A DNA stretch of 64,000 nt from Clavibacter sp. (lineage in GTDB: Bacteria; Actinomycetota; Actinomycetes; Nanopelagicales; Nanopelagicaceae). The DNA is taken from contig BGOH01000001.1 in assembly GCA_003569145.1 (NCBI GenBank), positions 62,001-126,000 on the forward strand, in the 5' to 3' direction. Shown in pieces: positions 4,602-6,733 of this stretch. The translations under genes and the position numbers were made by a program. Every line of letters begins with the position of its first letter. Positions within the stretch are counted from its first letter, which is position 1. The notes under the pieces were generated by a model. That model was not told the DNA's origin. It was given only the letters and a program-made list of their open reading frames with translations, and ran no database searches.

Positions 4602-5198
4602 CTACTTATTAGGAGCGGCCGAGGGGTCGATTACCGCTTTGGCCACCTCTTTCATCGAAATTCGCCGGTCCATCGCTGCCCGCTGAATCCATGAAAATGC
4701 CTCAGGCTCTGAGAGGTTTAGGGCCTTCATCAATATTCCCTTAGCTCTGTCAATTAATTTTCTACTCTCAAGTCTTTCATGAAGATCACTTACCTCAAGT
4801 GCTAGAGATTTCATCTGTCTATGACGACTAATTGAGATCTCAATTGCTGGGATTAGATCATTGATTGTAAAAGGTTTAACAACATATGCCATCGCTCCAG
4901 CCTCACTTGCTCGCTCTATCAAATCTTTCTGGCTAAATGCGGTCAGCATTAGAACTGGAGAGATTTCAATTATCTGAGTTGCAGCAGAGATTCCATCAAG
5001 GATTGGCATCTTCACATCAAGGATTGCTAAATCAGGTTTTAGCTCTTTAGCAAGATCGATTGCTTCTTGGCCATTACTTGCCTGGCCAACTACTTCATAT
5101 CCCGACTCACTTAGCATTTCAACTAAATCCATACGGATTAAAGTTTCATCCTCAGCAATAAGGATGCGATGGGAACCAGATTTAATATTAATACTCAC
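4602..5198 (-). CDS. pdtaR: ANTAR-domain response regulator (PdtaR-like antiterminator)
   Basis: A 198-residue two-domain protein. The receiver domain (residues about 10-125) has the acidic pocket EDE at 16-18, the phosphorylatable Asp61 in LDVKMP and Lys108 in VVKPF. A coiled linker leads to a C-terminal ANTAR domain (about 135-190, SRKLIDRAKGILMKALNLSEPEAFSWIQ). ANTAR proteins bind paired-hexaloop RNA and prevent transcription termination; in mycobacteria PdtaR works with the kinase PdtaS. No kinase gene is adjacent here. The GTG start at 5198 lies one base after the 3' end of the tRNA-Leu, and the only SD-like bases (GAGG) are inside the tRNA acceptor stem, so the mRNA may be leaderless after tRNA processing. 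Confidence 0.92.
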   Translation of the reverse strand: MSINIKSGSHRILIAEDETLIRMDLVEMLSESGYEVVGQASNGQEAIDLAKELKPDLAILDVKMPILDGISAATQIIEISPVLMLTAFSQKDLIERASEAGAMAYVVKPFTINDLIPAIEISISRHRQMKSLALEVSDLHERLESRKLIDRAKGILMKALNLSEPEAFSWIQRAAMDRRISMKEVAKAVIDPSAAPNK

Positions 5199-5199
5199 G

Positions 5200-5272
5200 T
5201 GCCTCGAGTCGGATTTGAACCGACACTATGCGGTGTTTGAGACCGCCCTCTCTACCGTTGGAGTACCGAGGC
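5200..5272 (-). tRNA. tRNA-Leu(CAA) with a short class-I variable loop
   Basis: A 73-base cloverleaf read on the minus strand. The acceptor stem GCCTCGG pairs with TCGAGGC (one G-T pair). The D arm carries GG in its loop, the anticodon stem is GCGGT/ACCGC with loop CTCAAAC (anticodon CAA), and the T arm is GTCGG/CCGAC with loop TTCAAAT. The discriminator is A73, as leucyl-tRNA synthetase expects, and CCA is not encoded. The variable region is only five bases (ATAGT), whereas bacterial leucine tRNAs normally have a long variable arm. It lies 21 bases after the pyruvate kinase stop and one base before the next gene, so co-transcription with both is likely. Confidence 0.93.
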
Positions 5273-5293: not shown

Positions 5294-6733
5294 CTAGCGA
5301 TAGGCAGGAGCAACGCCACTGACAGCATCTCCCACCTTATGAACGCGCATAGCATTGGTGGAACCAGGAATTCCTGGAGGGGAACCAGCAACAATCATGA
5401 TTAACTCACCAACAGCTACTCTCTTACTTTCAATCAAAATCGTATCTACCTGCTTAACCATCTGATCAGTTGTGGTAACTAATGGGGTTAGAAGTGGTTC
5501 AACCCCCCAAGTAAGTGCCATCTGGTTATAAGTAGCAGTATCAGGGGTGAGCGCCAAAATTGGAATTGGCGATCTAAGTCTTGACATTCTTCGCGCTGAA
5601 TCACCGCTCTTAGTGAATGCAGCCAGAACTTGTGCGCCAATTGTTAGGCCAACCTCGGTTGCAGCCTTTGTTATTGCCCCACCTTTAGTTTTTGGGTTGT
5701 GTTGCAGGGCTGGAATTAAATGAAGCGCTTCCTTCTCAGTCTTTTCAATGATTCGAGCCATTGTTGATACTGCCTCAATTGCAAATGCTCCCACGCTAGT
5801 CTCACCTGAAAGCATCAAAGCATCAGCGCCATCAAGAACGGCATTAGCACAATCTGTAGCCTCAGCTCTTGTTGGTCGAGAGTTGTTAATCATTGAATCA
5901 AGCATCTGAGTTGCAACAATTACTGGCTTTGCATTTTCCCTAGCAAGAGTGATGCATCGCTTCTGTACAAGTGGAATATCTTCAATCGGCATTTCAACTC
6001 CGAGATCACCGCGAGCGACCATAATTCCATCAAATGCTAGAACTATCTCCTCAAGATTATCGACCGCTTGAGGTTTTTCAATCTTGGCGATAACAGGAAT
6101 GCGATGGCCCACTTCATCCATTACTTTGTAAACATCATCGATATCTTTTGCAGATCTTACAAATGATAAAGCAATAAAGTCCGCGCCTGCTTTAAGCCCC
6201 CAGCGCAGATCTTCAATATCTTTCTCACTCATAGCAGGAACTGATACTGCAACTCCTGGAAGATTAATTCCCTTGTTATTAGAAACAATTCCTGGCTCAA
6301 TAACTTTAGTGATTACATCGCTACCTTTAACCTCGATCACCTGAACTGTTACTTTGCCATCATCGATAAGGATTAAGTCTCCAGCCTTGCAATCACCAGG
6401 AAGTCCTTTATAGGTAGTTGAGACGCGAGACTTGTCGCCAGCAATATCATCGGTGGTAATGGTAAAAATATCTCCACGCATTAATTCATGAGGGCCGTTT
6501 TCAAATCTTCCTAGGCGAATCTTCGGTCCTTGAAGATCAACCATGATTGCCACAGGCTGTTTAACTCGCGCAGCCTCAGCCCTTACTAGATCTAGGCGGT
6601 TTTGATGCTCTTCATATCCACCATGGGAGAGATTTAGCCTTGCCACATTCATTCCAGCTCGAATTAGCTCCGAGACTTTTTCAACGCTCTCAACTGCAGG
6701 GCCCATGGTGCAGACAATTTTGGCGCGGCGCAT
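5294..6733 (-). CDS. pyk: Pyruvate kinase
   Basis: Converts phosphoenolpyruvate and ADP to pyruvate and ATP, the last step of glycolysis. The 479-residue protein begins directly with the RRAKIVCTMGPA strand of the TIM barrel. It has the ARLNLSHG motif near residues 31-38, the catalytic lysine in the IAKIEKPQA stretch (Lys217, with Glu219 as metal ligand) and RGDLGVEMP from residue 241. The C-terminal regulatory domain follows. Length and motifs are normal for actinobacterial enzymes. The ATG has only a weak upstream purine run. The gene is followed after 21 bases by a tRNA-Leu gene. Confidence 0.97.
   Translation of the reverse strand: MRRAKIVCTMGPAVESVEKVSELIRAGMNVARLNLSHGGYEEHQNRLDLVRAEAARVKQPVAIMVDLQGPKIRLGRFENGPHELMRGDIFTITTDDIAGDKSRVSTTYKGLPGDCKAGDLILIDDGKVTVQVIEVKGSDVITKVIEPGIVSNNKGINLPGVAVSVPAMSEKDIEDLRWGLKAGADFIALSFVRSAKDIDDVYKVMDEVGHRIPVIAKIEKPQAVDNLEEIVLAFDGIMVARGDLGVEMPIEDIPLVQKRCITLARENAKPVIVATQMLDSMINNSRPTRAEATDCANAVLDGADALMLSGETSVGAFAIEAVSTMARIIEKTEKEALHLIPALQHNPKTKGGAITKAATEVGLTIGAQVLAAFTKSGDSARRMSRLRSPIPILALTPDTATYNQMALTWGVEPLLTPLVTTTDQMVKQVDTILIESKRVAVGELIMIVAGSPPGIPGSTNAMRVHKVGDAVSGVAPAYR

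Follow-up and report, generated by a model that had tools for sequence, protein, structure and literature searches.

The tRNA-Leu(CAA) gene described here very probably encodes a leucine tRNA that is functional, reads UUG, belongs to a class-I Leu(UUR) type widespread in actinobacteria and is charged by a single ordinary LeuRS. It lies in a stretch of 64,000 nucleotides of a Clavibacter sp. genome (Nanopelagicaceae), hereafter the window. Its similarity to named loci places the window in the Nanopelagicales (acI) group, close to Candidatus Planktophila. This assessment is drawn from sequence comparison, and under it a second synthetase or an altered genetic code is unnecessary. According to the textbook rule all bacterial leucine tRNAs have a long variable arm. 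The features considered are the following (positions refer to the window, except for the LeuRS gene, which is given by its own locus in the same genome):

5200..5272, minus strand: 73-nt tRNA-Leu(CAA) with a class-I body, position 5200 being A73 (ARAGORN, Rfam RF00005, RNA fold)
5225..5229, minus strand: variable loop AUAGU, 5 nt, with U48, in place of the class-II arm (structural parse)
5237..5239, minus strand: anticodon CAA, reading UUG (ARAGORN; sequence)
5248..5263, minus strand: leucine-type D-arm CTC-CAACGGTAGA-GAG with a 3-bp stem, C13/A22 unpaired, A14 A15, G18 G19 and A20a
5294..6733, minus strand: pyruvate kinase gene (pyk) upstream of the tRNA, a conserved neighbour (Pfam PK and PK_C)
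4602..5198, minus strand: PdtaR-like ANTAR response regulator (Pfam Response_reg and ANTAR), GTG start at 5196-5198, one base after A73
L334:784-3204, minus strand: LeuRS ORF, 806 aa, the single match above the LeuRS cut-off

ARAGORN called the tRNA at 5199-5272 on the minus strand, and the Rfam family RF00005 matched 5200-5272 on the same strand with 54.5 bits (E 5.9e-9). The RNA folds into a cloverleaf of -26.4 kcal/mol (z = -2.7 versus shuffles) with an acceptor stem of 7 bp, the last pair being G-U, an anticodon stem of 5 bp closing the loop CUCAAAC and a T-stem of 5 bp. The CCA end is not encoded in the gene. We distinguished between class I, an RF00005 cloverleaf with a variable loop of 4-5 nt, and class II, with a variable arm of at least 10 nt. 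With its 5 nt AUAGU loop the tRNA falls into class I and outside class II, and the variable-loop consensus in related short Leu tRNAs is NNAGU. The 73-base tRNA-Leu(CAA) with an ATAGT variable loop and A73, as described in the initial annotation, is thus confirmed by ARAGORN, RF00005 and the fold. The gene is neither a chance match nor a decaying pseudogene, because BLAST matches with 92-100% identity are found in 96 of the 101 genomes of the host family, covering 16 of its 17 genera.

The initial annotation also stated that the sequence folds perfectly as a class-I tRNA. This holds for the variable loop but not for the D-arm, which by covariation is of the 3-bp leucine type. Its stem is formed by positions 10-12/23-25, positions 13 and 22 are unpaired and the loop is CAACGGUAGA, an arrangement unlike that of other class-I tRNAs. 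When we considered the own genome together with a closed relative used for comparison (99% complete, 38 tRNAs), the signature of a 3-bp stem, unpaired 13/22 and GGYAGA was shared by all Leu tRNAs and absent from the other tRNAs. The energy fold of tRNA-Leu(CAA) alone favours a shifted D-stem register, which its relatives do not back. In a set of 195 short Leu tRNAs, part of which came from a motif scan that fixed some loop positions but left the stem free, the 3-bp register pairs in 194-195 sequences, and for the alternative register two of its three pairs form in just 37-49. Furthermore the stem occurs in covarying versions (CUC/GAG, GCC/GGC, UCC/GGA, GUC/GAC, AUC/GAU). Both a normal 4-bp D-stem and the register favoured by the energy fold are ruled out by this covariation. 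An origin from a non-leucine class-I tRNA via a change of the anticodon is likewise ruled out, since the D-arm is found only in Leu tRNAs.

As in bacterial leucine tRNAs, the gene combines a leucine anticodon with discriminator A73. A15 and U48 are both present and would be expected to pair with each other. BLAST matches, a phylum pattern search and whole genomes, but no motif search, supplied a set of 85 different short Leu tRNAs. A73 is present in all 85, A14A15 in 84, U48 in 83 and GGYAGA in 82. About 28 of the loci behind this set stem from the phylum pattern, in which U48 and A14A15 were fixed and A73 was free. In E. coli the reported leucine elements are A73, A15-U48, G18G19 and A20a; E. 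coli LeuRS is still active on variants without the long arm, so that the variable arm is dispensable, and sequence and folding of the arm show no correlation with leucylation (PMC9976931). All of these identity nucleotides are kept in tRNA-Leu(CAA). It had been expected that LeuRS would be forced to read a non-standard shape, an expectation which loses its ground in view of what the E. coli enzyme uses and what it can dispense with. Compared with class-II tRNA-Leu, both of E. coli and of this lineage (Leu(UAG) and Leu(GAG)), the short tRNA shares A73, the 3-bp D-stem, unpaired 13/22, A14, G18G19, A20a, U48 and a leucine anticodon. The differences are the variable region, 5 nt in tRNA-Leu(CAA) versus 11-15 nt in the class-II forms of this lineage, and C13, which is found in nearly all short forms.

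We therefore consider a model in which the long variable arm would have been reduced to a 5-nt loop, with A73, the leucine-type D-arm (A14, A15, G18G19, A20a) and U48 retained. A single ordinary LeuRS would charge this tRNA with leucine by reading A73, A15-U48 and the core of the D and T loops, in the manner reported for the E. coli enzyme. The retained leucine D-arm suggests that the arm was lost from a class-II leucine ancestor. SerRS requires a long arm and G73, and for this reason the missing arm may keep SerRS off, so that arm loss may also help to exclude this enzyme. Expression of the tRNA, its charging by LeuRS and the effect against SerRS are what we infer from these features.

The LeuRS of the own genome is single and complete, with editing and anticodon-binding domains and the motifs HMGH and MSKS. 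However, it is without the insertion ahead of KMSKS, which we equate with the leucine-specific domain known from the E. coli and Thermus enzymes. The match to the family profile breaks at profile positions 569-605, the alignment to the E. coli and Thermus structures ends at the same point and just 8 residues lie between QG and MSKS. Since this insertion is missing, the recognition rules from E. coli may not transfer exactly. A narrower version of our explanation would be that LeuRS acquired a mode of its own for class-I bodies by coevolution, tied to the loss of the insertion. Class relatives with a readable motif likewise have just 8 residues at this place, where E. coli-type enzymes carry an insertion, which would speak for such a mode. 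Other class relatives, however, carry a second LeuRS type of about 940-1030 aa, whose profile match begins near position 143. At least two LeuRS types, this long one and one that aligns from the N-terminus, thus occur among genomes with short Leu(UUR). For this reason the short tRNA probably does not rely on one special LeuRS, and we rejected such a dependence. The own LeuRS must in addition charge class-II Leu(UAG), and class-I Leu tRNAs are found in phages of Lactobacillus and Synechococcus hosts. Altogether we regard a coevolved mode of LeuRS as unlikely.

Next to the synthetase we compared the set of leucine tRNAs, as suggested in the initial annotation. The own draft genome is 81% complete and gave 34 tRNA matches, with the gene at 5200-5272 being the sole CAA tRNA found. 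Leu(UAA) is also 73 nt long and of class I, and Leu(UAG) is present in two class-II copies of 79 nt with an 11-nt variable arm. The closed relative has class-I Leu(CAA) and Leu(UAA) as well as class-II Leu(UAG) and Leu(GAG) with variable arms of 11 and 15 nt. From this split in both genomes it follows that the tRNAs for UUR are short and those for CUN are long. A second, long-arm Leu(CAA), named in the initial annotation as an argument against its reading, was found neither in the own genome at 81% completeness nor in the closed relative at 99%. Since the closed relative with its 38 tRNAs has no such gene, the gene at 5200-5272 appears to be the only cognate CAA tRNA. One call in these data, a 'tRNA-Ser(AGA)' of 74 nt at L034:70-144, was parsed with a variable loop of 7 nt and mispairing in the D-arm and is probably a mis-read tRNA of another type.

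Measured by the textbook rule, a CAA anticodon on a class-I body is out of the ordinary, and the initial annotation had raised the possibility that another synthetase charges the tRNA, in which case UUG would stand wholly or partly for another amino acid. We aligned the proteins of the window with those of other bacteria, excluding recognised acI-like loci. UUG positions aligned to Leu in 63% of pairs, a value similar to those of the other leucine codons (UUA 61%, CUU 62%, CUC 61%, CUA 63%, CUG 76%), and the control codon AUU gave 13%. At strongly conserved UUG positions 13 of 14 were Leu in the homologues from other bacteria. As most of the aligned leucines in the partners are coded by CUC or CUG, the test is independent of how the partners read UUG. 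UUG accounts for 185 of the 1,879 leucine codons counted in ORFs at least 200 aa long. By alignment, then, UUG is read as leucine, which is no proof that the tRNA at 5200-5272 itself carries leucine because tRNA-Leu(UAA) could also read UUG. A reassigned UUG is unsupported, since the codon sits on conserved leucines as often as the CUN codons do. Charging by another synthetase is also opposed by the D-arm restricted to Leu tRNAs and by A73, which show that no tRNA from another family has been relabelled here, and by the persistence of similar tRNAs across the phylum. With the identity nucleotides kept, UUG on conserved leucines and a single complete LeuRS in the genome, we consider it very improbable.

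It had been suggested that short leucine tRNAs may occur elsewhere in actinobacteria, and both BLAST and pattern scans show them throughout the phylum. In the host class BLAST matches to the short CAA tRNA were found in 102 of 246 genomes (47 of 104 genera) and to the UAA tRNA in 179 of 246 genomes (79 of 104 genera), where some matches are counted for both because the two queries are alike. Class-I Leu(UUR) genes that fit a strict structural pattern were found in at least 88 of 396 genomes sampled across the phylum, a lower bound given the strictness of the pattern, and the reversed-pattern control gave 0 matches in the same scan. In a scan of named genomes, 80 of the 81 matches listed (80 loci) were Leu tRNAs according to ARAGORN, 46 with UAA and 34 with CAA. 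Most loci among these matches belong to Actinomycetota by record title, including Mycobacterium, Nocardia, Corynebacterium and Bifidobacterium as well as Streptomyces lincolnensis. A few of the matches listed bear other names (Christensenellaceae, Planctomycetota, Rokuibacteriota, Deltaproteobacteria, Gemmobacter, Chloroflexaceae); for short Leu tRNAs under non-Actinomycetota names contamination is possible because these are metagenome bins. On a Chloroflexaceae MAG contig (L285:56-4411) we noticed a tRNA array with more than 20 members, whose leucine tRNAs split into class I for CAA and UAA and class II for CAG and GAG. As far as these scans reach, the short leucine tRNA is phylum-wide in Actinomycetota and not an oddity of one genome.

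These data may point to a clade-wide switch in Actinomycetota, in which Leu(UUR) but not Leu(CUN) would have turned from class-II into class-I tRNAs with a core signature of their own (C13/A22 unpaired, variable loop NNAGU). The arm would then be unused for leucine identity, and its reduction may hold off SerRS or toxins that sense the arm, such as MenT. We put this forward tentatively, as a possibility that could well turn out either way, somewhat short of probable. If true, it would reverse the textbook rule of class-II bacterial leucine tRNAs. In any case the phylum that contains Mycobacterium, Corynebacterium, Bifidobacterium and Streptomyces breaks the long-arm rule for its UUA and UUG tRNAs. 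With short Leu(UUR) and long Leu(CUN) side by side in the same cell, nature provides a test of which features LeuRS reads and of the reason for having an arm. These tRNAs also caution against labelling short Leu tRNA genes as misannotated or recoded.

In literature outside subscription journals we found class-I Leu(UUR) nowhere described as a clade trait, and the only hints were mycobacterial. These genes are a routine part of annotations and may be familiar to specialists. The reviews consulted, among them PMC9976931, ascribe a long arm to bacterial tRNALeu and mention no exception. For M. tuberculosis, PMC11541572 names only tRNALeu-2, -3 and -5 as having a long variable loop, by implication leaving the other Leu tRNAs without one. 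Class-I Leu(UUR) was also found in Mycobacterium loci among the matches listed. The passages concerned in PMC11541572 make no comment on a missing arm. A short-loop Leu(UAG) has been reported solely within a horizontally acquired tRNA cluster (PMC6582537). Human and animal mitochondrial tRNA-Leu(UUR) also has no long arm and is recognised via A73 and A14 (PMC9976931). It is, however, organellar and has a partly unfolded anticodon branch, whereas tRNA-Leu(CAA) is a stable cloverleaf in free-living bacteria, where class-II Leu(CUN) tRNAs coexist in the same cell. Class-I Leu tRNAs are furthermore found in phages of Mycobacterium, Lactobacillus and Synechococcus. Those of Bonray, Lactobacillus phage ATCC 8014-B2 and Synechococcus phage S-CREM1 are annotated as tRNA-Leu and share the short variable loop and a similar core, but they are phage-borne and their anticodons include GAG and UAG. 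In Mycobacterium phage Bonray the class-I tRNA-Leu(GAG) at L342:301-374 lies next to a longer Leu(CAG).

Finally we looked at the genomic neighbourhood. The gene order pyk - tRNA - ANTAR response regulator is found in 38 of 44 family loci, and likewise in 38 of 44 the bases past A73 are CATG or CGTG, which places the regulator start one base after the tRNA. From this fixed place one could conclude that the operon carries here a tRNA-like element of non-coding or regulatory kind without a role in decoding, which is scarcely credible given that the gene is the only CAA tRNA found and that the same tRNA type occurs without these neighbours in 57 of 72 other loci (a rough count, as some loci comprise only about 300 bases). 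At several more distant loci the regulator is located 266-1019 bases downstream of the tRNA. In the window, 3' processing of the tRNA would yield a nearly leaderless regulator mRNA (5196-5200), and maturation of the tRNA and expression of the regulator may for this reason be coupled.
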